This document shows, in pieces, positions 12,686 to 42,994 of a stretch of 47,509 nucleotides of DNA. The notes under the pieces are model-generated. The model was given only the letters and a program-made list of their open reading frames with translations, did not search any database and was not told the DNA's origin. The stretch comes from Psychromarinibacter sediminicola (GTDB taxonomy: Bacteria; Pseudomonadota; Alphaproteobacteria; Rhodobacterales; Rhodobacteraceae): positions 1 to 47,509 of the forward strand of contig NZ_JARGYC010000037.1 of NCBI RefSeq assembly GCF_029168335.1, written 5' to 3'. The position numbers and the translations under genes were made by a program. Numbering within the stretch: the stretch's first letter is position 1; each line of letters begins with the position of its first letter.

Positions 12686-12957
12686 CTCTGGTCTCCGCGA
12701 TGTTGGCAGATCCGTCGTTCATGGTTTCTGACGGCCCCTTGTGGTCGGGGCGCGACCAGTCGAACGATGTGTCCTCTTGTACGTCGGGATGGTTCGACTG
12801 GCGCTGACCCATGTTAGCCCCGCGCGTCGAACCGGTTGTGAACTCTCTGCAGTTCGTCGTCGGCACTGATCTGTGCAAGGGCGGCGAGACCGACCGTCGC
12901 GTATCCATTGCGGAACAGGGATGATCTGCAGCCCTGCAAACCTTGAAAGGATTGGCG

Positions 12958-15104: not shown

Positions 15105-15728
15105 TCACGTCACCACCCGGACCCAGGCCACCGCTTCGCTCAGGACCCTCTGCATGGCGTCATCGAGACCGGCCACGAGGGCAACGGTCGTGTCGGACGA
15201 CACCGCGCGCAGGCTGTCGAACCGGCGCGTTCCCGCGATTTCGCGGTCTGACTCGCGGATCAGCGTCGATTGCACCGAAACATGGACCTGCGCCGATGCG
15301 GGAGGGACGCCGTGAAGCTCCGCCTGGAACGCGATGATCTCGGTCATCAGCGTGAAATCGGGATTCAGCCCCGCCCCATCCCGGCTGATCAGCCGCAGGC
15401 CGCCCCGGGACAGAAGCGAGCTCACCAGCAGCGTCTGCACCATGGCCGGGGCCGGCTCGCTCCAGCGCGCACCCGGCAGATACTCGGCCTGCCGTGGGGA
15501 AACCTTTATCAGGATGCGGTCGGTTGCCAGTTCGCCCCCCGAAGTGGGCAGTTCCACGACAAGATGACCGCGGCCTCCGGTCTCCGACGGCGCACCCTGC
15601 AGCGGCGACAGCGTGTAGGTGTCGAGCGGATCGCTTGCCGTGGAGACAGCGGACAGGGCGCCGCAACCCGGAAGAGCGCCGAAGACGGAAAGGGACAGAA
15701 ACTTGCGGCGCGACTGCGTTTTTTTCAT
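15105..15728 (-). CDS. ABC-type transport auxiliary lipoprotein (PqiC/LptE-like partner of MCE system)
   Basis: The 207-residue protein begins with a basic n-region and a hydrophobic stretch ending GALPGCGALS. The Cys near residue 22 is the likely lipidated residue, although Pro before Gly makes the lipobox non-standard. The remainder fits the ABC_trans_aux family: DTYTLSPL, then RILIKVSPRQAEYLPGARWS, and a helical C-terminal part. Such lipoproteins help MCE proteins carry lipid across the periplasm. It is the last gene of the four-gene operon and overlaps the MCE gene by four bases. Confidence 0.84.
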   Translation of the reverse strand: MKKTQSRRKFLSLSVFGALPGCGALSAVSTASDPLDTYTLSPLQGAPSETGGRGHLVVELPTSGGELATDRILIKVSPRQAEYLPGARWSEPAPAMVQTLLVSSLLSRGGLRLISRDGAGLNPDFTLMTEIIAFQAELHGVPPASAQVHVSVQSTLIRESDREIAGTRRFDSLRAVSSDTTVALVAGLDDAMQRVLSEAVAWVRVVT

Positions 15729-16621
15729 TTTCGGTACTCCGGTGTGTCATTACCCAGCAGGAACCGCCCCGGATCGCTTCCGATCTGACGGGCGAGAGCG
15801 TCGAATGTGGCAATCACGCCGCTGGCGTCCTGGATCAGTGTGTTGACCTGCGCCGACAGCCTCGGCACGTCGCCCCGCGCCACCTCGCGCACCGCAGTCA
15901 TCGCCACGCGTGTGCTGTCGACGGCGGCCTTGAGTCCCTCCACGAGTTCGGGGATGTCCCGTGCAAGGAGACCGTCGGCGGAGCCAAGGCTCGTCTCGAC
16001 GGCGCTCAGTGCGCCATCCACTCGGGAAAGCGTATCCTCCGCCCGGGTGGCCAGCGCATCGATCCGTCCGGTCGCGTCCTGAAGGTTGACGAGGATCCCC
16101 GCGACGGCATCGCGGTTTCCGGGCGTGACAAGGCCCCGCACCTCGGCAATGAGCGCCGTGGCCTCGGCCAGCAGTTCGGGACCGGTGACCAGCAGATCCT
16201 GCACCACCGACCGCTCCGAACGGATGACCGGAAGCTCTGCCGGCGGCACGGCCGTCAGCCGCTCCGCCCCGGCGCTGCCGCCCTCGAGGGCGATGAAGGC
16301 GACGCCGGTCACGCCTTGCGACGCGAGTGTGGCGACCGTGTCGGTGCGCACGGGTGTGCTGGCGAAGACCTCGACGCGCACCCGCACGAGGGCGGGGTCG
16401 TCCCGGTCGAGACCGATGGACAGGACGTGCCCGACATCGACGCCGTTGTAGCGCACGGCGGCAGTCTGGCTCAGACCCGCGGCCGTTCCAAGGAGGATGT
16501 CGTATTGCGCATATGTCCGGTCGATCTGCACCTTGGCCAGCCAGAGGACGAAGCCCAGCATGGCGACGAAGCCTAGAACCGTGAACAGGCCGATCAGCAC
16601 GAAGCGCGCGCGGGTTTCCAT
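15725..16621 (-). CDS. mlaD: MCE-domain lipid-binding protein (MlaD-like)
   Basis: The 298-residue protein has one N-terminal transmembrane anchor (FVLIGLFTVLGFVAMLGFVL, about 7-26) and a single MCE domain (about 38-115) with the diagnostic AAVRYNGVDVGHV and GVTGVAFIALEGG motifs. A long helical tail (about 150-290) probably forms the periplasmic lipid-conducting barrel with its homo-oligomer partners. Classical MlaD is much shorter, so the tail is closer to the Pqi/Yeb or plant-TGD2-like versions. It starts at ATG 16621, sharing the A of TGATG with the ATPase gene, which implies tight coupling. Confidence 0.88.
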   Translation of the reverse strand: METRARFVLIGLFTVLGFVAMLGFVLWLAKVQIDRTYAQYDILLGTAAGLSQTAAVRYNGVDVGHVLSIGLDRDDPALVRVRVEVFASTPVRTDTVATLASQGVTGVAFIALEGGSAGAERLTAVPPAELPVIRSERSVVQDLLVTGPELLAEATALIAEVRGLVTPGNRDAVAGILVNLQDATGRIDALATRAEDTLSRVDGALSAVETSLGSADGLLARDIPELVEGLKAAVDSTRVAMTAVREVARGDVPRLSAQVNTLIQDASGVIATFDALARQIGSDPGRFLLGNDTPEYRK

Positions 16622-17397
16622 CAGCTACTTCCCGCCACCGCAAGGGCGGCATGAGCGCGGGGGCCGTTGAAATAGGAACGCACCCAGGCATCATCGACAT
16701 CGCGCATCTCGGCCATCGTGCCGGTGGCCAGCACGCGTCGATCGGCCAGGACCGCAATCCGGTCGCACGTCGCCTGCAGGGTATCAAGGTCGTGCGTGAC
16801 CAGGAACACGGTCAGACCGAGAGACGTGCGCAGCGAATTGAGCAGGGTATCGAAGGCCGACGCGCTGATCGGGTCGAGACCGGCGGTCGGTTCGTCCAGA
16901 AACAGGATCTCAGGGTCGAGCGACAGGGCCCGCGCCAGCCCGGCGCGCTTTCGCATCCCTCCCGAAAGCGCCGAGGGAAACAGATCTCCCGCCCGCGCGG
17001 GCAGGCCGACCATCGCGATGCGAAGATCCGCCAATGCCCGCCGGGTGACGGCGTCGACCGAAAGGCGTTCGCGCATCGGTGCTTCGACGTTTTCGCGGAC
17101 GGTCAAGGCCGAGAACAGCGCGCCATCCTGGAACATGACGCCGGTGCGCACGCTGACGGCTGCCCGGTCAGCCGCGCTCGCACCCAGCACATCCGTGCCA
17201 AGCATGGTGATCTGGCCGGCGCTTGGCGCCATCAGCCCGACGATGCTGCGCAGCAGCACCGACTTGCCGCTGCCCGAGGCGCCGACGACTCCCAGCACCT
17301 CGCCCCGATGGACGTCCAGCGACAGGTTCTCGTGCACCACCGTCTTGCCGAACCTGTTGGTCAGGCCGCGGATGGCGATCACCGTCTCGGCCACCAT
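16621..17397 (-). CDS. mlaF: ABC transporter ATPase of MCE system (MlaF-like)
   Basis: The 258-residue ATP-binding subunit shows Walker A GASGSGKS (about 40-47), the signature LSGGMRKRAGLARAL (about 143-157), Walker B ILFLDEPTAGLDP (about 164-176) and the switch His in FLVTHD. It powers retrograde or anterograde phospholipid transport with the adjacent permease and MCE protein. ATG 17397 shares its A with the stop of the permease gene (TGATG). The upstream frame stays open past the start only because it reads through the permease gene. Confidence 0.92.
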   Translation of the reverse strand: MVAETVIAIRGLTNRFGKTVVHENLSLDVHRGEVLGVVGASGSGKSVLLRSIVGLMAPSAGQITMLGTDVLGASAADRAAVSVRTGVMFQDGALFSALTVRENVEAPMRERLSVDAVTRRALADLRIAMVGLPARAGDLFPSALSGGMRKRAGLARALSLDPEILFLDEPTAGLDPISASAFDTLLNSLRTSLGLTVFLVTHDLDTLQATCDRIAVLADRRVLATGTMAEMRDVDDAWVRSYFNGPRAHAALAVAGSS

Positions 17398-33341: not shown

Positions 33342-33431
33342 GCCGCAGTTGCCTTCCACTCCTGCCTTCTGGATCGCGCCCCGCGACAGCCCGACATGCG
33401 CGGCGTACTGGCGCTCGCTCATGCCTTGCAT
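33333..33431 (-). pseudogene. Truncated phage/terminase-small-subunit-like gene at element border
   Basis: Read leftwards from ATG 33431 (CGGAG seven bases before it), the frame encodes MSERQYAAHVGLSRGAIQKA and then nine residues without resemblance before a stop that overlaps the end of the glucan-synthase gene. The first part matches the N-terminus of small helix-turn-helix proteins annotated in Rhodobacterales as elements of external origin or terminase-like. Resemblance ends near base 33363, which probably marks where element or phage DNA joins resident DNA. Confidence 0.55.
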
Positions 33432-33462
33432 CGACGGCTCCGATTATCATTCAGAATCATGT

Positions 33463-33481
33463 GCTTATTGAGTTGATAAGC
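33463..33481. promoter_or_regulatory. Inverted repeat in the left divergent promoter region
   Basis: GCTTAT and ATAAGC form a 6+6 inverted repeat with a 7-base spacer, in the only AT-rich stretch of the 33432-33542 interval. It lies about 60 bases before the first rightward gene of the element and about 30 before the truncated leftward gene, a good place for an operator serving either. Confidence 0.35.
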
Positions 33482-33542
33482 GTCACGGACAGAGCGAACG
33501 TCCTGTCAGAAGGACGATGCAACTCACCACGGAGCCACCACG

Positions 33543-33815
33543 ATGACCACGCGCCTGAACCCGATCACCACCCCGCGCCACGAACTCCGCGCCGAGAGGG
33601 CGCGCAGGAACAAGGAAGCCGCGCTCGCGGCCTTCATCGGCAAGAAGGCCGAGATCGACGAGATGCTCGCCCGCCTGCAGGCGCTCAGCGACGACCATTT
33701 CAACTGCGCCCCCGACGAGGCGGGCTGGGCGATGGTCGGCACCCTCGAACACTACGCCAGCCTCTTGAAGCGCATCACCGACAGCGCCTTCGGCGAGGGC
33801 GAACACGCCCGCTGA
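33543..33815 (+). CDS. Small conserved hypothetical protein of the mobile element
   Basis: The 90-residue protein is helical and charged: RHELRAERARRNKEAALAAF, then KKAEIDEMLARLQALSDDHF and a DEAGWAMVGTLEHYASLLKR segment. No named domain is recognised; similar short proteins occur just ahead of DUF3489 genes in other rhodobacterial elements. ATG 33543 has GGAG about nine bases upstream. It is followed after about 95 bases by the DUF3489 gene on the same strand. Confidence 0.6.
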   Translation: MTTRLNPITTPRHELRAERARRNKEAALAAFIGKKAEIDEMLARLQALSDDHFNCAPDEAGWAMVGTLEHYASLLKRITDSAFGEGEHAR

Positions 33816-33910
33816 TCTCCGGCAACGCCGGAACTCCCGCCGCGCGCCCAGCGCGGCTCGGGGTCGTAGAAGGCGCCGCATGTCGCGGGCCCAAATACGG
33901 AGACGACCCC

Positions 33911-34483
33911 ATGACGAAGATTTCCGATACCCAAGCCATCATCCTCAGCGCCGCCGCACAGCGCGAGGACCGCATCGCCTTGCCGCTGCCCGAGAGCCTG
34001 CGCGGTGGGGCTGCCGCCAAGGTGGTCGGCGCGATGCTCGCCAAGGGCTTCCTGCAGGAGGTCGACGCGGACATGCTTAAGGGCGAGACCGTCTGGCGCG
34101 AGACCGGCGACGGCCACGGCGTCACGCTGGTCGCCACCGAAGCGGGCCTCACCGCCATCGGCATCGAGACCGAGGACGCGAAAACCGCGCCTGCGGGCGC
34201 GACGGACGCGGCGACCGAGGAGCCCGAGCCGGACACCCCCACCGAACCGAAGGCCGCGCCCAAGGCGCGCATACCGCGCGAGGGCACGAAGCAGGCCACG
34301 CTGATCGCCATGCTGCGCGCGCCGGACGGCGCGACCATCGAGGAGATCATGGCCGCGACGGGCTGGCAGTCGCACACGGTGCGCGGCGCGATGGCCGGGG
34401 CGCTGAAGAAGAAACTCGGGCTCGAGGTGACCTCGGAGAAGGTCGAGAACCGGGGGCGCGTGTACAAACTCCCCGCCGCCTGA
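33911..34483 (+). CDS. DUF3489-family protein
   Basis: The 190-residue protein has an N-terminal domain (about 1-85; DTQAIILSAAAQREDRIALP and a GFLQEVDADML segment), an acidic Pro/Ala/Thr linker, and the DUF3489 C-terminal winged-helix-like domain (about 125-185). The latter reads REGTKQATLIAMLRAPDGAT, then IEEIMAATGWQSHTVRGAMA, then KVENRGRVYKL. Such domains resemble small DNA-binding modules, and they are nearly always found in integrative elements beside serine recombinases. A role in controlling element genes is likely but not shown. Confidence 0.83.
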   Translation: MTKISDTQAIILSAAAQREDRIALPLPESLRGGAAAKVVGAMLAKGFLQEVDADMLKGETVWRETGDGHGVTLVATEAGLTAIGIETEDAKTAPAGATDAATEEPEPDTPTEPKAAPKARIPREGTKQATLIAMLRAPDGATIEEIMAATGWQSHTVRGAMAGALKKKLGLEVTSEKVENRGRVYKLPAA

Positions 34484-35013
34484 CGCACCGGACCCCGACA
34501 AGTTGATGGACGCCGTCCCTCCGGGGCGGCGGTCGATCATTTGGCGCTCCGCATCCGGATGGCATCGAAGATGCCGCCGCAAGGCAAAGGACATAAGCCC
34601 AGTTACGAATTTCACGCGGGTTACGGCGCGGATGACATCATAGGAGCGCCGTCAGAACCGGTTGTATCCGGAGCGGCAATCATGATCGGTGATTTACTTC
34701 ACGGGGCGATCGGTCCCCTTGAGATGGATTCCATGGTGCTGGCTCCCACCGGAGTCCGGCTGGATTCCGGATGCGCCACGGAATCCACCACTTGAGCGCC
34801 TCGAACGCCAACAATCATTGGCCAGGTGGCATACGTTCTGGACTCCAATTTCCGGGGTGGCTTCCCAAAATTTCGGCCCTGTCGCTGGCGATAGTGCGCG
34901 CTGTGCCCTCCCGTATACACAATCGCCCAGAAGGAACCAGAAACTTCAACGGGTTAGCGGGTGGACCCCGTCTGGACCCCGGTGCGGAGTCCGGGGTCCA
35001 GTGGGGAATCCGG
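34484..35013. other. Convergent gap in the element containing a strong hairpin
   Basis: About 530 bases lie between the DUF3489 gene (rightward) and the leftward three-gene operon. A frame at 34541-34795 has no ribosome site and no recognisable product; I do not call it. The GGGTGGACCCC at 34959-34969 recurs at 39481-39491, and the perfect hairpin listed separately lies next to it. This gap holds the end of both transcripts and perhaps a recombination or replication site. Confidence 0.45.
34972..35001. terminator. Perfect 11-bp stem-loop between convergent genes
   Basis: CTGGACCCCGG (34972-34982) pairs perfectly with CCGGGGTCCAG (34991-35001) around an eight-base loop. It sits directly behind the end of the leftward operon (stop at 35014) and beyond the rightward DUF3489 gene. 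No T run follows on either strand, so it could terminate transcription inefficiently, protect a 3-prime end, or be a protein-binding site. Confidence 0.45.
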
Positions 35014-35223
35014 TTAGGGTTCCTGCGCGTCCGCCCTGCTTTGCCGCGGCCCATACAGCTTCTCGCCCAGCTGTCGGACCAGCTCCCGCTCTGGCCAGCT
35101 GAGGCGCTCATCGTCAATTGAGATGGCGAGCACGCCCTGATCGCGCCACCCGTCCCTTTTCACGCGGTCCGGGTCGCGGCGCTCGCCACCATAGCCCGGA
35201 GGATGCCAGCGCATCGTCTTCAT
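35014..35223 (-). CDS. Small conserved protein, third gene of TOPRIM-helicase operon
   Basis: The 69-residue protein is Arg- and Asp-rich, with RDQGVLAISIDDERLSWPER and LVRQLGEKLYGPR as the conserved-looking parts. ATG 35223 has AGGAGG eight bases upstream and overlaps the previous stop by four bases. No domain is recognised. Its fixed place behind the TOPRIM-helicase gene suggests it works with that enzyme. Confidence 0.65.
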   Translation of the reverse strand: MKTMRWHPPGYGGERRDPDRVKRDGWRDQGVLAISIDDERLSWPERELVRQLGEKLYGPRQSRADAQEP

Positions 35224-35747
35224 CCGTGCCCCTCCTGCCGCTCTCTTTCCAACGCCGCACGGGCTTGCTGGGCTCGGCGACGGTCGCGGTCGTTATCGAG
35301 GTCGATCCGGCTCTCGCCGGTCTCGCGGCTGATATGGCAGCCCTTGCCGTGACGCGCCCAGGCGATGAAGGCGTTGTCGATCCTGCCGTGGAGCGCGATC
35401 AGGGAGCTCTGGTTGGCGACCGAGATGAGCGGTGCGAGATGGCGCGAGAGGAACGGCAGCCAGTCCGCGGGGTTTGGGACGATGACATGCTCGACGAAGG
35501 AGAGCGGCGTTTCGATCAGCACGAAGAAGCCGTGGATCTCGCTCGGCCAGAACCGGATCTCGAGCGCACCGCCCAGCAAGCCCTCCTCGGTCAGCAGCGT
35601 GTATTCGCAGTCGAGGACACGCTCGAGCGCGCGATGCCAGTCCACGCGTTCGGTTTCGCTAATGCGCACGGCCGCATGATACCAGTCGGGCAACTCCGTG
35701 TCGTGAAATCGCCCGGCGTCGTAGAGGCGCATCCTGTCAAAACTCAT
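35220..35747 (-). CDS. Conserved hypothetical protein, second gene of TOPRIM-helicase operon
   Basis: The 175-residue protein has a well-folded core: YDAGRFHDTELPDWYHAAVR, DCEYTLLTEEGLLGGALEIR, and a HGFFVLIETPLSFVEHVIVP stretch, followed by a charged helical tail rich in Arg and Asp. I do not recognise the fold. It overlaps both neighbours by four bases (ATGA), so the three genes are made together. There is no signal peptide or membrane helix. Confidence 0.65.
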   Translation of the reverse strand: MSFDRMRLYDAGRFHDTELPDWYHAAVRISETERVDWHRALERVLDCEYTLLTEEGLLGGALEIRFWPSEIHGFFVLIETPLSFVEHVIVPNPADWLPFLSRHLAPLISVANQSSLIALHGRIDNAFIAWARHGKGCHISRETGESRIDLDNDRDRRRAQQARAALERERQEGHG

Positions 35748-38700
35748 GCCTCGGTCTCCTCTTCTGGTTGGGGGTGGTGGGTGCGGCGCAGGGCGGCGGG
35801 CTTCGCGGCGTCTAGCCGCGCAGACAGCGCTTCGAGCGCAGCGCGGCGCGCGGCGAGCACGGCCTGCATGCTGGCGGTCAGGCGGGATGCGAGGGTGTCG
35901 AGGCGTGCCGCCGCGGCGGGATCGGGTGCGTCAGATCCGGAGCCCGCGATCGACCGCATCTCGAAGCTGGCGAGCGGCCCGAGGCGGTTGGTGAGCCAGG
36001 CTTCCGGATCGGGAATGCGGGAGAGATCGACGCGGGCGGTGCGGGCGCGATGACCGGGACCCTCCGGGCGATAGGTCACCTCTGCGGAGGAGTGTGACAT
36101 TTGGCTATTATAGAGGTCTCTATAATAGCAGTTTGTCACACTCCTCGACCGATCCTGCCGCGCGGCGGCGGCCGTGGACCACAGCTCGGGGAAGCAGGCG
36201 GCCATGTCGGCGGCGTTCTCGATCTCGATGCCGGTCAGCGCCATCAGGTCGCGCCGGGTCGGGCGGAGGTCGGACCAGGGCACCAGCGCATCGACGGTGA
36301 CCGGCAGGACCACGTCCGTGAGCAGGTCGATCTCGAGCGGCGTGGCGGCGGTGCGGTTGACGCCGCGCCCGCGCCCCATCGCCTGGATCAGCTCGCCCTC
36401 GCAGATGCACCAGCGCACGGCCTCGGCGATGGGATCGGCATGTTCCTCCATCGCGAGCGGCGCGGTCCGGTCGTCCGCGAGCCGGACACGGCGTTCGAGC
36501 ATCGGATACCACCAGCCCGCGTCCTCCGGGTTCGGCGCGGGCACGCGGCCGGTCAGCGCCGTGGCAATCAGTTCAACGGTGCGCGGCGCGGGAAGCGTGC
36601 GGCCCAGCACCACCATGCCGCCGATCCCGCCCCAGCGGTCGAGCCCGCTCAGCGCGTTGAAATGCACCGCCTCAACCCGCGGCGGCAGCCCCGCGGACCT
36701 GAGCGCATCAATGGCGGTCTTCTGGCCCACCACCAGCAGATCGATTGCCTGGCCAGGGCGACGGCATTGGCGGGCCCGGAGGTCGATCCAGGCGCGGAGG
36801 TCGCGCAGCCGGGTCGCGGCGGCCTTGCGGTCGCGCTCGGGCGCATCGGCGGAGGGCGTCAGGGCGCGGGCCGAGGTCGGGCTGCCGGTGACTTGGCGGA
36901 CGCGGACCTGCGGCTGGCGCGCGGCGACGGGCGCGCCGATATCGATCCGTGGCAGGTAGGTCTGCACGAGTTCCGGCCGCAGCGTCGCGTCGAGATGCAG
37001 GATCGGCGCCTGGGCCGCCCAGCCGGTCCGCATCGGGCTGCGCCAGCGCAGGCGGAGGGCGCGGACCGAACCGGCCTCGGTCATGTCGTGCACGAGCTCG
37101 GCGCCGGCGGCGTCGTGGCCGTTCTCCAGCGCCTCGGCGAGGATCAGCCAGAGCGTGGCGCAGCGCCCGGGCGGCGCCCATGGCTCGCCCGCGGGCGGCA
37201 GGACCGCCTCGATGCGCTTGCGTCGCTCGACGGGCGACATGCCGGGGCGGAGGCCCGCGTCGCGCATCCGGCGGCGTTCCAGCGTCGCAGCATGGCGGCA
37301 GTCCTCCGGGGTGAGACCGACGGCTTCCAGCAAGCCCACACGCAGCGGACCGGGCTCCGTGACCCGCAGCGCCTTGCAGAGCCGCTCCCGCGCGGCGACG
37401 AGGTCGGCGGTGGCGCTGACATCCATCTTCCCCTTGCCGGTGTAGCAGGTGAGCGAGGTCCGGCCGGGCTCCAGCCCGTCCTGCGTGAGCGTCGCCTTGC
37501 CGTCGAGACCGCGCAGGCCCGACTGCCAGAACGCCTCGTCGATGACGAGGAGCCCGACCTCGCCGATGGCCTGCGGCTTCATGTGGAAAAGGCTGTCATG
37601 GGCGCAGACGATGACCTGCGCCGCCTGCGCCAGCGGCTTCTGGCGCTGGTAGCCGCAGTCGTGGAACCAGGGGCAGAGCAGCAGTTCCGCGCCGTTCTTG
37701 ACCTTGCAGCAGCTCTGTTCGACCGGATGCTCGATCTCGAGCGCGTCGAAGGTGGCCTCCGTGTCGAGGCACATGAGTTGGTCGGGATTGTCCGGCGTGG
37801 GATCGGACGCGGTGCGCCCCTTCCAGAGCATGGCGCTGAGGCCGAGCGCCTCGAAGGCCGCGACCTGCTCGGCCCCGAGATCGTGACGCGGCACGGCATA
37901 GACGACCTTGCGTGGCCCAAGCCCGCCCGCGGCGATCAGCTCGGCGATGGCGACGCGCGCGCTCGAGGTCTTGCCGAGGCCCACGTCGACCGGCAGGCCG
38001 AGAAGCGGAGGCAGCGCCGCCCGTGCAACGATGTTGAAATCCAGCGGATCGCGATTGGAGTCGGGGTTCTTGGCCTCCTCCTGCGCCGCCTCGACGGCGG
38101 CCCAGTAGTCCGGGATCGCGGTCATGAAGCGGGCGATGGCGTCGGCCAGGCAGGCGCGGGCCTCATCGGGCGTAAGGACCGGCGCGGGATAGGTCGGCGG
38201 TGGCGGCGGTATCCGGGCGGCACCAGCCACCAGCGCCGCAACGGCGTCCGGCCCCTCGGCGCAGAACAGGTCGTTGGCGTCGCCCGGGCTGCCCGGCGCG
38301 GCCAGACGGCCGTCGACCGCGAGAGCGACCTTGCGGGCCGCCTCGACACCGGGATTGCCATTGCGGTCGGGCTTCTCGTCGTTGTCGGCGACCAGGACGA
38401 GGTCGGCCGCCGGAAAGCGCGCCCGCAACGCCTCGGCCACCGGCATCAGGTTGCCCGCGTCCATCGCCGCGATCACGGTATGACCCGTGGCGATGTGCAG
38501 GCTCGCGCCGGTCGCCCAACCCTCGCAGATCAGGACGGGGCCGTTGGGCTCCCCGAGTGGCCCCGGCTCCGCGCCCACCACCGCGAAATGCCCCCGCTTT
38601 GCGCCGCCAGCGAGGAAGCGCTTGGCGCCGTCCGGCGCGATGGTCTCAACAGTGTGCAGGCGGCCGTCGCCGTCTTGCAGCGGCACGACGAGATGTCCGC

Positions 38701-39235
38701 GCGCGTCCATGCGCAAGCCGAGCGGCGCAACCTTCTTGGCAGTGAGATAGGAATGGTCATCCGGGGCTGGACGTGCGCTGGTCCAGATCCGCTTGGCGCG
38801 AGCTGCGGCTTCCTCTGCACGGGAGACGGCCGGGTCTGCATCGTCGTGAGGCGTCTGAGGCGCGGTTTCCGCGCCCGGCTGGGCCGGAGGTGAAACCGGC
38901 TTGTTCGTCGACAGGAACGATGGCGCCGGGTGCGTCCGGGTCGGCCGATGGCGTCGCCCGATGCCGATACGATCGGCCGTCCAGTCCAGCGCGTCGCCGC
39001 GGGAGAGACCGAGATCCCGGCCAACCAGATCGACGAAACCACCGCCGTCGCCCGTCTCATGGTCGAACCACATGCCCGCCTTGGCGCCGCCGATCACGAC
39101 CGCGAGGCTGCCCTTGCGGCCCCAGCGCCATTCCTGGCCCGCCCGGAAGGTCGGCTTGCCCAGCAGCTCCACCGCCAGTTCCGGCACGCGCGCGCGCAGC
39201 TCCGCATCGAAGGCCCGCCAGTCCCGCGCGCTCAT
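35744..39235 (-). CDS. TOPRIM-domain protein fused to a DinG/XPD-like helicase
   Basis: About 1163 residues. The N-terminus (1-75) resembles primase-associated domains (WRWGRKGSLAVVIGGAKAG, then FDHETGDGGGFVDLV). A TOPRIM domain follows (about 225-330) with the Glu in LICEGWATG and the acidic pair in LVADND. From about 410 comes a helicase-like part: Walker A VGLGKTSS (about 418), a four-Cys cluster QSCC..C...C (about 510-530) like the iron-sulfur region of DinG/XPD helicases, AAQVIVCAHDSLF, and a LLVIDEAFW motif II (about 562). The C-terminus is Arg-rich. It would prime or unwind DNA for the element. ATG 39235 is used; GTG 39247 is an alternative. A 60-bp palindrome lies within codons about 1030-1050. 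Confidence 0.8.
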   Translation of the reverse strand: MSARDWRAFDAELRARVPELAVELLGKPTFRAGQEWRWGRKGSLAVVIGGAKAGMWFDHETGDGGGFVDLVGRDLGLSRGDALDWTADRIGIGRRHRPTRTHPAPSFLSTNKPVSPPAQPGAETAPQTPHDDADPAVSRAEEAAARAKRIWTSARPAPDDHSYLTAKKVAPLGLRMDARGHLVVPLQDGDGRLHTVETIAPDGAKRFLAGGAKRGHFAVVGAEPGPLGEPNGPVLICEGWATGASLHIATGHTVIAAMDAGNLMPVAEALRARFPAADLVLVADNDEKPDRNGNPGVEAARKVALAVDGRLAAPGSPGDANDLFCAEGPDAVAALVAGAARIPPPPPTYPAPVLTPDEARACLADAIARFMTAIPDYWAAVEAAQEEAKNPDSNRDPLDFNIVARAALPPLLGLPVDVGLGKTSSARVAIAELIAAGGLGPRKVVYAVPRHDLGAEQVAAFEALGLSAMLWKGRTASDPTPDNPDQLMCLDTEATFDALEIEHPVEQSCCKVKNGAELLLCPWFHDCGYQRQKPLAQAAQVIVCAHDSLFHMKPQAIGEVGLLVIDEAFWQSGLRGLDGKATLTQDGLEPGRTSLTCYTGKGKMDVSATADLVAARERLCKALRVTEPGPLRVGLLEAVGLTPEDCRHAATLERRRMRDAGLRPGMSPVERRKRIEAVLPPAGEPWAPPGRCATLWLILAEALENGHDAAGAELVHDMTEAGSVRALRLRWRSPMRTGWAAQAPILHLDATLRPELVQTYLPRIDIGAPVAARQPQVRVRQVTGSPTSARALTPSADAPERDRKAAATRLRDLRAWIDLRARQCRRPGQAIDLLVVGQKTAIDALRSAGLPPRVEAVHFNALSGLDRWGGIGGMVVLGRTLPAPRTVELIATALTGRVPAPNPEDAGWWYPMLERRVRLADDRTAPLAMEEHADPIAEAVRWCICEGELIQAMGRGRGVNRTAATPLEIDLLTDVVLPVTVDALVPWSDLRPTRRDLMALTGIEIENAADMAACFPELWSTAAAARQDRSRSVTNCYYRDLYNSQMSHSSAEVTYRPEGPGHRARTARVDLSRIPDPEAWLTNRLGPLASFEMRSIAGSGSDAPDPAAAARLDTLASRLTASMQAVLAARRAALEALSARLDAAKPAALRRTHHPQPEEETEA
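36087..36146. repeat. 60-bp nested palindrome inside the TOPRIM-helicase gene
   Basis: Two perfect inverted pairs share one centre at 36116.5. The outer arms are GAGGAGTGTGACA (36087-36099) and its complement at 36134-36146. The inner arms are GCTATTATAGAG (36104-36115) and its complement at 36118-36129. The four-base spacers between arms do not pair. The core is AT-rich inside a GC-rich gene, yet the reading frame passes through it intact. Confidence 0.9.
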
Positions 39236-39725
39236 CGCCGCCCCCACGGGATGGGCGCATGCGCGCCGGTCGGCAAAGGAGCCGCGGCGGCATGGTGCGA
39301 GAGTTGGCGGAGACGGACGGACACGGGGGCTGCGGAACCGGTTGAAGGGCGTCGTTGCCCTCGGTTCTGCCGCGCATCAGACCGCCCTCGCGACGTCGGA
39401 ACCGGTCCGCCCGGCCACAGGCCATCGCTCCGGAAAGGGGTGATCCCTTCCGCCAAGGCATTGAAATAACGTCAATTAATGGGTGGACCCCAACGGGCCC
39501 AACGACCCCTGTGGAGCGCCTTCAGCGGCCGCGGCCGATCAGAGGGGTGACCCCTCGTCCGCGCGAACGCAGTGAACGGTTCCGCCCTTCATCGAGACGC
39601 CCAGCGTCCGGGGGCCGCATTTGCAACAGGGGTATCGAGGGCAATGGTAACGGCACGGGCCAGAGCCAGCCGCCGCCATAATCGCGTTGTCCCCAACAAC
39701 GCGCTTGCGGGCGCCTTCGCCGATC
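39236..39725. other. Upstream region of the TOPRIM-helicase operon with operator-like repeats
   Basis: This 490-base gap contains three palindromic sites of related sequence: AAGGGGTGATCCCTT (39435-39449), GGGTGGACCCC (39481-39491, identical to one at 34959) and GAGGGGTGACCCCTC (39542-39556). An AT-rich patch (TTAATTAATG-like, about 39471-39482) marks the probable promoter of the operon. Open frames here on both strands look like shadows. No gene is called. Confidence 0.55.
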
Positions 39726-40439
39726 CTATCCGGTCTGGCGCAGATCGGGCCCCAGCACCCGCTTCGCGCCGCCGCGCTGTGCCGACGGCAGCCGGATCAG
39801 CGTGGCCATGGCGTCGGCCAGCTTGTTCGACACCGGCTCGCCCTCGATCTGCTGCTCGAGGAACCAGTCGACGAGGCAGTCCTTCTTGCCCTGGTCCTCG
39901 GCCGTGATCCCGAAATGTGCAATCGCGGTCTGCATCAACTCGAGATAGGGCGTGGTGTAAATCGCATCTGCCGCGTCCTGTGCAGGCCGCACCGGCTCCG
40001 GGATGTAATCCGGCCAGATCGCCTTCACGAGGAAACGCGCCACGCGGATGTCGATGAATTCCCAATCCCGCGCGGTCAGTCGCCCGAATGAACACTTGCC
40101 CTCGCGCCACTGCTCCGGGCGGATGCTGGTGTGGTAGCCCGAATGCAGACCGAAGCCGCTGCTGCTGCCGCCATTTCCCCAGCCATGCGTCCGCTCTTCG
40201 GTGTAACGGCCCTGCGCCAGAAGATCGCCGTCCCTCAGCGCGACGAGCAACTCGGTCTCCCCTTCCGCCTTCCAGGCCACAGCGGGATCCTGCGGCGGGT
40301 TCCAGGTCTGGTATTCCGGCACAGGCTTCGGCGGCAGCTTTGCCGCCTCCGTGGCGCGCCGTGCGACGGTCACATTCTGCACATGGGCCAGCGCCTCTGC
40401 ATAACTCCATTGGGTACGGTCGAGCGTTTGCAGCGACAT
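39726..40439 (-). CDS. Uncharacterised protein of the element under a LexA-type promoter
   Basis: The 237-residue product is not recognised. Its middle is Gly-, Ser- and aromatic-rich (RTHGWGNGGSSSGFGLHSGY), with conserved-looking segments EWREG/FGRLTARDWEFIDIRVA and a helical C-terminal part (TPYLELMQTAIAHFGIT; VSNKLADAMATLIRLPSAQR). No membrane helix or signal peptide is present. ATG 40439 has CGAGG six bases upstream; earlier in-frame codons would cross the promoter. An SOS box overlaps its -10 region, so it should be induced by DNA damage. It lies between the TOPRIM-helicase operon and the recombinase cassette. Confidence 0.65.
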   Translation of the reverse strand: MSLQTLDRTQWSYAEALAHVQNVTVARRATEAAKLPPKPVPEYQTWNPPQDPAVAWKAEGETELLVALRDGDLLAQGRYTEERTHGWGNGGSSSGFGLHSGYHTSIRPEQWREGKCSFGRLTARDWEFIDIRVARFLVKAIWPDYIPEPVRPAQDAADAIYTTPYLELMQTAIAHFGITAEDQGKKDCLVDWFLEQQIEGEPVSNKLADAMATLIRLPSAQRGGAKRVLGPDLRQTG

Positions 40440-40471
40440 GGGCGGCCTCGTGAATCGATTGGGGACAGTTC

Positions 40472-40501
40472 GAACATAATGGGAACGCCCTGACCCCTCA
40501 A
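40472..40501 (-). promoter_or_regulatory. Promoter with LexA (SOS) box
   Basis: GAAC-ATAATGG-GAAC (40472-40486) is an exact GAAC-N7-GAAC, the alphaproteobacterial LexA box (GTTC-N7-GTTC on the other strand). On the minus strand, TTGAGG (40501-40496), a 17-base spacer and TATGTT (40478-40473) make a good sigma-70-type promoter, with the LexA box covering the -10. The gene start at 40439 follows about 27 bases after the predicted transcription start. Confidence 0.7.
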
Positions 40502-40509
40502 CCCACCAC

Positions 40510-40523
40510 GGTGTTGCAACACC
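40510..40523. promoter_or_regulatory. Perfect 14-bp palindrome in divergent promoter region
   Basis: GGTGTTGCAACACC is a perfect palindrome just upstream of the -35 of the LexA-box promoter and about 85 bases before the first gene of the recombinase cassette. Next to it are AAGGG-N5-CCCTT (40525-40539) and GGGGTGACCC (40553-40562), related to the sites in front of the TOPRIM-helicase operon. Confidence 0.5.
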
Positions 40524-40606
40524 TAAGGGGTTCACCCTTTCCGGCCGGGCACGGGGTGACCCGTTCCGAGGTCGCGGTCATCGGCGCAATCCGGCACCGA
40601 TGGATC

Positions 40607-40831
40607 ATGATGTTCGATCCCGGTCCCATTCGTCGCCCCAACCCGCTCGCCCCTTCGGCGATGACGCTCGCAGAGCGTCGCGCCGAGATGTGTGGTCTGC
40701 TGGCGCTCGGGCTAGTTCGGTTGCGGATGCGGGAGACGGGCGAAGTATCTGACGATACTGGAGAACGTTGCCTACACTATCCGCCCGACCAATGCCGTCA
40801 TGCAACTCCAACGCACCGGAGAAATGCATGA
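40607..40831 (+). CDS. Small leader protein of the recombinase cassette
   Basis: The 74-residue protein contains MTLAERRAEMCGLLALGLVR, LRMRETGEVS and a LHYPPDQ(C/S)RHATP-type ending, a form seen in front of DUF2924 genes in other elements. Its stop overlaps the DUF2924 start as ATGA. ATG 40607 or 40610 could start it; neither has a clear ribosome site. The function is unknown, but its tight coupling makes it part of the recombinase unit. Confidence 0.65.
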   Translation: MMFDPGPIRRPNPLAPSAMTLAERRAEMCGLLALGLVRLRMRETGEVSDDTGERCLHYPPDQCRHATPTHRRNA

Positions 40832-41283
40832 ACAAGCCCGATCGCATCCCCGCGCGCCTGGCCGCGCTCAAGACCACGCCGACGCCCGACCTGAAGAAAC
40901 AGTGGCGCGACCTGTTCGACAGCGAGCCGCCGCCGTTCAACCGGCGCAATCTGGAGAGCCGCCTGGCCTATCGCATTCAGGAACTCGCCTATGGCGGACT
41001 GCAGCCGGAGACGATCCGGCGGCTTGAGCGGCTGGGCGAGGAACTGGACGGCGGCGACAGGAAGAAGCGCGGCATGCGCGCCAACCGCGACCGCCCGATC
41101 ACCGGAACGCGGCTGCTGCGCGAGTGGCAGGGCGTCGAACAGGTCGTCACCGTCACCGCCGACGGCTTCGAATGGCAAGGGCGGCCGTACAAGTCGCTGT
41201 CCGCCATCGCGCGCGCGATCACCGGCACCCGCTGGAACGGATGGGTCTTCTTCGGGCTCAAGAACCACAGGGGGCGGACATGA
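40828..41283 (+). CDS. DUF2924-family protein
   Basis: The 151-residue protein is a typical DUF2924 member: LKKQWRDLFDSEPPPFNRRN near the N-terminus, LAYRIQELAYGG, then GTRLLREWQGVEQVVTV and a DGFEWQGRPYKSLSAIARAI stretch ending in GTRWNGWVFFGL. Members almost always precede a serine recombinase and are thought to help it, perhaps as recombination directionality or accessory DNA-binding factors. ATG 40828 has GGAGA six bases upstream and an ATGA overlap with both neighbours. Confidence 0.88.
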   Translation: MNKPDRIPARLAALKTTPTPDLKKQWRDLFDSEPPPFNRRNLESRLAYRIQELAYGGLQPETIRRLERLGEELDGGDRKKRGMRANRDRPITGTRLLREWQGVEQVVTVTADGFEWQGRPYKSLSAIARAITGTRWNGWVFFGLKNHRGRT

Positions 41284-42605
41284 CGAAGCCGCCGGAAAAA
41301 TCGAAGGTCGTCCGCAAGCTGCGTTGCGCGGTCTACACTCGCAAATCCTCCGAGGAAGGGCTGGAGCAAGAGTTCAACTCGCTCCACGCCCAGAGGGAGG
41401 CCTGCGAAGCCTACATCGCCAGCCAGCGCTCCGAGGGCTGGGTGCTTGTCCGCGATCAGTATGATGATGGCGGCATCTCCGGCGGCACGCTGGAACGGCC
41501 CGGCCTGAAGCGGCTGCTGGAGGACATCGAGGATGGGCTGGTCGATGTGGTGGTGGTCTACAAGATCGACCGCCTCAGCCGCTCGCTGGCGGACTTCGCC
41601 AAGCTGGTCGAGGTATTCGACCGCAACGGCGTGACCTTCGTGTCGGTCACGCAGTCGTTCAACACCACCACCTCCATGGGCCGGCTGACGCTGAACATCC
41701 TGCTGTCCTTCGCCCAGTTTGAACGCGAGGTGACCGCCGAACGCATCCGCGACAAGGTCGCGGCGAGCCGGAAGAAGGGCATGTGGATGGGCGGGGTGCC
41801 GCCGTACGGCTACCGCGTCGAGAACCGCAAGCTGGTAGTGGACGAAGAAGCCGGCAAGCATGTCCGCTGGATCTTCTCCCGCTTCCTCGAGATCGGCTCT
41901 GGAACGGAACTGGCCCGCGAGGTCGCGAAGCGCGGCATTCGCACGCCCCGCGGCAACCGGATCGACAAGAAGTACCTCTACCGGATGCTGAACAACCGCG
42001 CCTACGTCGGCGAGGCCGTCCACAAGGGCGATAGCTACCCCGGCGAGCACGACTCGATCATCGACCGTGAGACATGGGACCGGGTCCACGCCATCCTGCA
42101 GGAGAGCCCCCGTAAGCGGGCGATGCGCACCCGCGCTGCGACCCCGGCGCTGCTTAAGGGCCTGTTGTACGGACCCGACGGCGCGGCCTTCTCGCCGACC
42201 CACACGCGCAAGGGCGGCAGGCTCTACCGCTACTACGTCAGCCAGACGGTGCTGAAACACGGCGCCGGATCATGCCTGGTCGGCCGCGTACCCGCAGGCG
42301 AGATAGAGGCCACTGTCATCGACCAGCTGCGCGCCGTGTTCCGCCAGCCGGAGATCGTGGCGGGTACGTGGAAGGCGGCGCGCGCCCACGCCGACGACAT
42401 CACCGAATCCGAGGCCCGCGCGGCCCTGCAGCAGCTCGATCCACTGTGGGACGAACTGTTCCCCGCCGAGCAGGCGCGCATCGTGGCGTTGCTGGTCGAG
42501 CGCGTGGACATCGGCACGGAGGGCCTGAACGTCCGCCTCCGCGTCGATGGCCTTGGCGGCCTTGCGCGCGAAATGCTGGCTGGAGATATGGGGGCAGCGG
42601 CATGA
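41280..42605 (+). CDS. Large serine recombinase (resolvase-domain site-specific recombinase)
   Basis: The 441-residue protein has a resolvase catalytic domain (about 14-165; nucleophile Ser23 in VYTRKSSEEG, then SLHAQREACEAYI, IDRLSRSLADF, and LLSFAQFEREV) and a recombinase domain (about 170-300; GVPPYGYRV, then YLYRMLNNRAYVGEA). The zinc-ribbon position at about 305-345 reads GLLYGPDGAAFSPTHTRKGG, with Gly and Ser where cysteines usually sit, as I recall for this DUF2924-linked group. At 441 residues it is compact for the class. It is the likely integrase/excisionase of the element and overlaps both neighbours by four bases. Confidence 0.92.
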   Translation: MTKPPEKSKVVRKLRCAVYTRKSSEEGLEQEFNSLHAQREACEAYIASQRSEGWVLVRDQYDDGGISGGTLERPGLKRLLEDIEDGLVDVVVVYKIDRLSRSLADFAKLVEVFDRNGVTFVSVTQSFNTTTSMGRLTLNILLSFAQFEREVTAERIRDKVAASRKKGMWMGGVPPYGYRVENRKLVVDEEAGKHVRWIFSRFLEIGSGTELAREVAKRGIRTPRGNRIDKKYLYRMLNNRAYVGEAVHKGDSYPGEHDSIIDRETWDRVHAILQESPRKRAMRTRAATPALLKGLLYGPDGAAFSPTHTRKGGRLYRYYVSQTVLKHGAGSCLVGRVPAGEIEATVIDQLRAVFRQPEIVAGTWKAARAHADDITESEARAALQQLDPLWDELFPAEQARIVALLVERVDIGTEGLNVRLRVDGLGGLAREMLAGDMGAAA

Positions 42606-42994
42606 CGCGGGGCGCACCGATCCCGGAGACTGTGACGCTCCACATCCCTTACCGTGTCGTGAAGCGCGGTGGCCGGAAGGAGATGCAGCTGCCGGAGGGA
42701 GCCGTGCTGCCACGGCGGGCTGATAACACGCTGGTCAAAGCGCTGGCGCGCGCGTTCCGTTGGAAGCGGATGCTGGAGTCGGGTGAGTTCGCTACCATCG
42801 CCGAACTGGCCGAGCGCGAGGGGATCGCACCGTCCTACATGACCCGGGTCCTCCGGCTCACGCTGCTCGCGCCGGACATCGTTGAGGTGATCGTAGCCGG
42901 CGCGCAGGGACCGGAGGTGACGCTGGCGAGCGTGCTCGAGCCGTTTCCGTTAGAGTGGGCAGCCCAGCCGGAGCAATTCAGGCAGAATGGCTAA
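42602..42994 (+). CDS. Helix-turn-helix protein of the recombinase cassette
   Basis: The 130-residue protein has an N-terminal beta part (PETVTLHIPYRVVKRGGRKE) and a KorB/ParB-like helix-turn-helix near residues 55-85 (ATIAELAEREGIAPSYMTRV, LRLTLLAPDIVE). It closes the four-gene cassette with an ATGA overlap. A DNA-binding accessory or regulator of the recombinase is likely. It is also a candidate for binding the palindromes scattered in the element's control regions. Confidence 0.75.
   Translation: MTRGAPIPETVTLHIPYRVVKRGGRKEMQLPEGAVLPRRADNTLVKALARAFRWKRMLESGEFATIAELAEREGIAPSYMTRVLRLTLLAPDIVEVIVAGAQGPEVTLASVLEPFPLEWAAQPEQFRQNG

Follow-up and report, generated by a model that had tools for sequence, protein, structure and literature searches.

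A predicted LexA-repressed early gene in a prophage family of Rhodobacteraceae and some other Alphaproteobacteria, and its product as a possible switch of the replication module

The window, that is the whole stretch of 47,509 nucleotides of Psychromarinibacter sediminicola DNA that was analysed, carries on its minus strand the gene of a 237-residue protein (P0001). Judged from its upstream region and from those of its relatives, this is very probably an early gene of a prophage family, directly repressed by the LexA of the host and released by RecA-driven cleavage of the repressor, and the element family would probably wake on DNA damage of the cell. The role of the protein we infer to be that of the element's regulatory switch, acting on the promoter region of the TOPRIM gene, and we give this a little short of an even chance. 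Taken as a whole, the reading of a LexA-repressed early gene together with a protein serving as regulatory switch for the replication module appears fairly probable.

In the proposed course of events, the host LexA, bound to GTTC-N7-GTTC over the -10 hexamer, would keep RNA polymerase out of the early gene. Upon DNA damage, RecA-driven cleavage of LexA would allow the 237-aa protein to be made, and this, as an activator or antirepressor, may act on the promoter region of the TOPRIM-helicase gene, which is a separate one and rich in palindromes. Once that gene is on, the element would replicate and complete prophages would enter the lytic course. The features of the promoter region are the following.

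39726-40439, minus strand: LexA-boxed gene, 237 aa (P0001), ATG start at 40439; N-terminal part variable, C-terminal approx. 75 residues conserved
40472-40486, minus strand: LexA box, GTTCCCATTATGTTC, a direct repeat GTTC-N7-GTTC; the forward-strand letters are GAACATAATGGGAAC
40473-40478, minus strand: -10 hexamer TATGTT, read from the sequence, contained in the LexA box
40496-40501, minus strand: -35 hexamer TTGAGG, with a 17-base spacer to the -10; its TTG is kept in 31 of 31 aligned sequences
40528-40537, no strand assigned: palindrome GGGTTCACCC, upstream of the -35, of the same type as in the TOPRIM leader

The initial annotation had described GAAC-N7-GAAC at 40472-40486, covering the -10 of a promoter TTGAGG, 17 bases, TATGTT in front of a 237-residue gene, and all of this could be read in the sequence. 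It had also noticed this box as the only exact one of LexA type between genes, but the window holds three (9006, 12829 and 40472), and the one at 12829 is likewise not within any gene of the codon model. Since 1.27 exact boxes are expected by chance and 9 of 100 shuffled windows reached three, the bare GAAC-N7-GAAC match is not significant. The whole 5.03-Mb genome contains 97 exact GAAC-N7-GAAC words, vs 59 for the reversed pattern. A stringent sigma-70 scan of positions 39000-41000 returned no promoter; it demands 9 of 12 letters, and the TTGAGG/TATGTT promoter has 8. In the same interval an Rfam search gave no match. Scanning the island for GAAC-N7-GAAC revealed no second exact LexA box, and the box at 40472 is unlikely to govern the DUF2924 and recombinase genes on the other strand, the DUF2924 start being 342 bp off in an island without a second exact box. 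A perfect 14-base palindrome, GGTGTTGCAACACC, is found at 40510-40523, between the -35 and the upstream palindrome, and is present in only part of the relatives.

For a host LexA matrix, the genome's own RecA, UvrA and ImuA-like proteins (the ImuA match being under the curated cut-off) were used as queries in 41 genomes of the same family and 30 loci were taken per protein; some of the weakest loci in the ImuA set could belong to other proteins. Exact boxes were present within 400 bp upstream of recA in 27 of 30 loci, of uvrA in 24 of 30 and of the imuA-like gene in 22 of 30, while in the control, 420 bp inside the same genes, they occurred in 3, 0 and 1 of 30, respectively. The matrix was built from the 72 exact boxes lying not more than 130 bp from the recA, uvrA and imuA-like starts; as these were picked for exact half-sites, it grades mainly the spacer. 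When the window and the genome were scanned with it, the box at 40472 reached 21.8 bits and ranked second among the 97 exact boxes of the genome, the boxes at 12829 and 9006 scored 10.6 and 7.7 bits, and 20 of the 72 matrix boxes outscored the 21.8 bits of the window box in a leave-one-out comparison. The rank alone is a weak guide, since the host's own boxes score 15.3 and 9.8 bits (lexA) and 15.8 bits (uvrA). The host carries LexA, with boxes upstream of both lexA and recA; lexA lies at C212:62755-63438 and two overlapping exact boxes are situated 45 bp upstream of it.

No exact box within 130 bp was present in 19 host SOS loci: 13 of these had no one-mismatch box either and 6 had one at the usual distance (the control gave 2 of 90). 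In 4 of the 6 the change is GTTC to GTTT, the one that also occurs in relatives of the boxed gene (below). The top-scoring LexA box of the genome, with 21.9 bits, is located at L019 1501-1515 (G000 contig C111, 48582-48596). It precedes the first start codon of a DUF3987 gene by about 40 bases, and this may be another gene of a mobile element that is under LexA control.

Relatives of the 237-aa protein were collected from 8 viral contigs, 29 genome contigs and the viral contig L246, 38 loci in all. The genome contigs are titled mostly as Rhodobacteraceae, but Erythrobacter, Aquibium, BAL199 and a small number of differently labelled MAGs are also among them. L061 and L065, in which the 5' end is missing, do not enter the box count, and four loci found by profile (L126-L129), at least two of which coincide with loci already counted, are left uncounted. 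All the 36 loci having the 5' end carry a box within 130 bp of the start, exact in 31 and with one mismatch in 5, and in each of the five the mismatch is GTTC to GTTT. These 36 loci, related sequences and therefore not independent, amount to 31 distinct upstream sequences and 11 box strings. Thus the homologues do not lack the box, an absence that the initial annotation had named as speaking against its reading.

The upstream alignment comprised the window and 30 of the 35 then-known loci with a 5' end; L034, L040, L046, L049 and L053 were dropped, their 120 bp upstream being equal to those of kept loci. In these 31 sequences the half-site letters are conserved to 90-100%, the promoter-spacer letters -54 to -48 to 52-74% and the letters -32 to -27 past the box to 30-65%. 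The TTG of the -35, the letters -56/-55 directly behind the -35 (87 and 94%) and the -10 are likewise conserved, as expected of any promoter. The -10 is altered in L047 (TACGTT) and L062 (TAGGTT), both half-sites being intact. The promoter by itself was rejected as the cause of conservation of the first half-site: this is situated between the -35 and the -10 and has stayed the same, whereas the spacer letters -54 to -48 drift.

The protein alignment contained P0001 and 27 of 37 loci, without L034, L040, L046, L049, L053, L059, L061, L062, L065 and L064, the last of these having stops within the gene; L068, frame-shifted near its end, was aligned as it reads. Among the unbroken relatives the lowest protein identity is 41% (L067), and the frame-shifted L068 reads 33%. 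Exact boxes stand in diverged flanks too, in L063 (49% protein identity), L057 (75%) and L058 (74%). A chance match was rejected: the count in the window is ordinary, but the fit to the family matrix and the conservation among relatives are not, and because of these two the box is not considered a chance word. As far as sequence can tell, there is thus good support for the LexA control put forward in the initial annotation, and hence for a connection between the element and DNA damage.

The boxed gene lies in an island of about 9.6 kb. DNA conservation with relatives extends from about 33373 to 42968, and the remnant of a terminase gene is seen from 33363. The other features of the island are listed here.

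33363-33431, minus strand: terminase small-subunit remnant at the island end, the first 23 codons followed by unrelated sequence; the same 23 residues as in the intact L238 gene
33543-33815, plus strand: 90-aa partner of the DUF3489 protein, no family match
33911-34483, plus strand: DUF3489 protein near the far end of the island, in a conserved block (PF11994, 9.4e-32)
35014-35223, minus strand: 69-aa protein; a similar small gene stands in the same place in relatives, by eye
35220-35747, minus strand: 175-aa protein overlapping the TOPRIM stop, no family match, present in relatives
35744-39247, minus strand: TOPRIM primase-helicase-like protein, ATG at 39235 (Toprim_3, 1e-16; phage DNA primase family phrog_2249, 1.5e-64)
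39236-39601, minus strand: conserved TOPRIM leader with GGGT-ACCC palindromes at 39481 and 39545 and a variant at 39436 (35-sequence alignment)
40828-41283, plus strand: DUF2924 protein, divergent from P0001 (PF11149, 3.9e-52)
41280-42605, plus strand: serine recombinase with zinc ribbon (PF00239, PF07508, PF13408)
42602-42994, plus strand: 130-aa HTH-like protein of the recombinase module, present in relatives (sub-threshold MarR and ParB/BhcR matches)

Among the 38 boxed-gene loci TOPRIM is present in 35 (not in L052, L054 and L062) and DUF2924 in 32, several of the misses being short contigs. The initial annotation had spoken of a neighbouring TOPRIM-helicase operon. This should be read with caution, since direct control of TOPRIM by the box may be absent: TOPRIM has its own conserved leader of approx. 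350 bp, and in L041, L046 and L051 a ParDE pair, which the window does not have, stands between the two genes (the families were tested in L041). Genes resembling restriction-modification genes by eye (N6_N4_Mtase by Pfam in L041) were seen past the recombinase/HTH end in L239, L240, L232 and L041, which suggests a cargo slot in this region.

P0001 gave no Pfam or NCBIfam match past threshold and no PDB sequence match up to E 1, and the plasmid collection contained no match to it. One weak, local match to a Paracoccus phage (E 0.08) in the phage collection was judged to be chance. In genome samples the protein was found in 1 of 101 by the single protein (its own genome) and in 5 of 390 by profile, the own genome included. 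HTH_Tnp_Tc5 appeared below threshold in 15 of 28 family members, with a best E of 0.043. The structure models are of moderate confidence (AF2 pLDDT 67 for the whole protein, pLDDT 72 for the C-terminal domain); in them the C-terminal domain is helical and possibly HTH-like, and fold searches with the models against PDB and BFVD found no match at E 0.001.

The regulatory role is proposed on two grounds. The TOPRIM gene has its own conserved leader, with palindromes of a type that is also found above the boxed promoter, and in L066 and L068 the promoter and the N-terminal block are exchanged with the box again present. In these two loci the promoter and the first approx. 160 codons are replaced, with no DNA match from 39959 to 40546 or 40557; the flanks remain 84-88% identical in DNA, and in the new block a one-mismatch box is present once more. 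Such a replacement resembles the exchange of immunity regions. The palindromes of the GGGT-N1-3-ACCC type are clustered at 39236-39601 and 40528-40562, in the leaders of TOPRIM and of the boxed gene; four GGGT-ACCC palindromes fall in 878 intergenic bases, vs 0.09 in single-base shuffles. They probably serve as repeats of an origin or as binding sites for a regulator of the element. The alignments, viewed by eye, showed no clear co-variation of the palindromes with the type of the N-terminal part. From its context, a regulatory switch is favoured over excisionase, replication accessory and host interference.

Recombination directionality factors of about 237-aa size exist, and the LexA-controlled gene could encode such an excisionase for the divergent serine recombinase, damage then triggering excision. 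The gene is indeed the divergent neighbour of the recombinase module, DUF2924 begins -388 to -426 from the P0001 match in 30 of the 32 loci showing it, and among 18 viral TOPRIM loci all the 8 with the boxed gene have the recombinase (7 of the 8 are contigs already among the 8 viral ones collected above). However, in G001, a genome of the same genus, the DUF2924-recombinase-HTH module is found at 81% DNA identity with another upstream module and without the boxed gene, so the gene and the serine integrase are not obligately paired in this one genome, which is listed as 10% contaminated. Moreover, in L066 the recombinase is 92% identical and the 237-aa protein 47%. The excision role considered in the initial annotation is therefore disfavoured, and we regard it as improbable.

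An accessory of the TOPRIM-helicase in replication, active in origin binding or loading and not as a transcription switch, would also be compatible with LexA control; TOPRIM accompanies the gene in the 35 of 38 loci mentioned, and the palindromes common to both leaders could be origin sites. Against this, 10 of the 18 viral TOPRIM loci show no boxed gene (3 of them with approx. 400 bp or less upstream, 1 with a distant 27% match), and in 4 of the 18 (L248, L249, L254 and L256, apparently two pairs of near-identical loci) a 984-992-aa gene is found instead. Related TOPRIM proteins thus work without the boxed gene, and an accessory function is unlikely. In the same four loci the 984-992-aa gene replaces both the boxed gene and the recombinase and has no LexA box upstream; in L248, the one tested, it is an SNF2 helicase by Pfam.

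The exchange of the N-terminal part between neighbours that stay alike is also what is seen in proteins meeting variable targets, and toxin-antitoxin and methylase genes surround these modules, so that the LexA-controlled gene might act on the host or on rival phages by division block, defence or counter-defence. However, no toxin, nuclease or defence family was matched in Pfam, NCBIfam or PHROGs and the gene has a fixed location between integration and replication genes; this role seems quite unlikely. That a regulator encoded by the element binds the direct repeat, whose likeness to a LexA box would then be coincidence, is very unlikely, although the element has its own palindromes with GTTCACC-like halves nearby: the spacing and spacer preference of the repeat match the host LexA matrix, the GTTC to GTTT change that it tolerates also occurs in the SOS promoters of the host, and GTTC(N7)GTTC is given as the consensus C. 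crescentus LexA site in the accessible part of PMC12907096.

The favoured reading of the island which carries this putative LexA-repressed switch is that of a truncated prophage, because at its end only the first 23 codons of a terminase small-subunit gene are left, and relatives have terminase, portal and tail genes. This is absent from the reading of the initial annotation. In the viral record G475 (27,676 bases) the same module is accompanied by terminase large and small subunits, a lambda-type portal, a head-tail adaptor and a GTA-TIM tail protein; the intact terminase small-subunit gene of G475 stands beside the 90-aa gene, at the place of the remnant in the window. An Erythrobacter contig with the module has terminase subunits too. 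The two contig ends of G475 (L238, L240) lie in late phage genes, one in the portal and one in the tail, which would fit a circular or extrachromosomal prophage. Six other late or middle proteins (terminase large subunit, portal, adaptor, holin-like, ParB-methylase and tail) had no match in the whole window; the late genes being gone, only the early part could still respond here.

Three other loci show the compact form: L060 (17 codons retained, 15256-15306), L051 (about 19, 16583-16639) and, as a trace only, L041; in all three ordinary chromosomal genes come next, as judged by eye. The ends of the island in several genera fall within the first codons of this one gene, and an attachment site or a preferred breakpoint may lie in it. 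The compact form without late genes might be read as a PICI-like phage satellite, but its end inside the terminase gene points rather to truncated prophages, or to an attachment site at that place. In the genus's 4 other genomes a search for the empty site gave no match in which the two flanks adjoin, and the two island ends of the window have no common word of 10 bases or more.

A wider picture can be proposed only tentatively, and we think it rather doubtful as a whole. A prophage family without its own damage-sensing repressor would be held down by the host LexA through one operator in front of a two-part switch protein; the cassette of promoter and N-terminal part would be exchanged like an immunity region, with the LexA operator always kept or regained; the protein would open the replication promoter; and the compact islands ending in the first codons of the terminase would keep the switch after loss of the late genes. 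Peptidase_S24 was absent from 6 of 6 viral records, all of them possibly fragments. The predicted operator offers a concrete SOS entry point into a mobile-element family that occurs in Rhodobacteraceae and in part of the other Alphaproteobacteria, the first responder being an uncharacterised protein. Should this be confirmed, damage to DNA would rouse these elements along with the toxin-antitoxin and methylase genes that some of them carry, and the 237-aa protein would represent a novel type of switch under LexA.

A literature search on DUF2924 (giving papers on Wolbachia), DUF3489 and LexA with prophage or Alphaproteobacteria yielded nothing on the element among the matches listed, subscription journals being thinly covered. 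The C. crescentus consensus cited above belongs to the alphaproteobacterial LexA regulon, in which, going by the available portions of PMC12907096 and PMC6473078, the operator is likewise a direct repeat of the same spacing placed over the promoter; in contrast, the target here would be a gene of a mobile element and not a repair gene. In the Salmonella Gifsy prophages the antirepressors GfoA and GfhA are LexA-controlled (PMC3121763, accessible part), and, as proposed in our case, a prophage gene with a host LexA operator ties induction to the SOS response. The Gifsy proteins, as portrayed there, are small and their target is a known non-cleaved repressor, in contrast to the 237-aa protein, which has no family match and for which no target was found. 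The lysogeny of the temperate phage GIL01 is kept by the host LexA (PMC6182141 and PMC4551915, in the parts available), which, as proposed here, sits directly on the promoter of early replication-side genes (PMC6182141). Lysogeny of the GIL01 type would go without a dedicated self-cleaving phage repressor, and no self-cleaving repressor domain was detected in the 6 viral records, possible fragments; however, GIL01 is a Bacillus phage which needs the phage gp7 together with LexA and has several boxes (PMC6182141), while here there is one box, a serine recombinase and a host of another class. Prophage-like loci are also described in Alphaproteobacteria: a tailocin locus is recA-dependent, its SOS link being ascribed, in the text available, to a proposed LexA-like repressor of the locus itself (PMC10811719), and LexA-like repressors are annotated in Methylobacterium prophages (PMC11409702, in part). 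In those loci the LexA-like repressor is locus-encoded, whereas the element described here would present an operator for the LexA of the host. Thus the logic, direct LexA control of prophage genes, is known, and it is the protein family and the host group that seem to be new.
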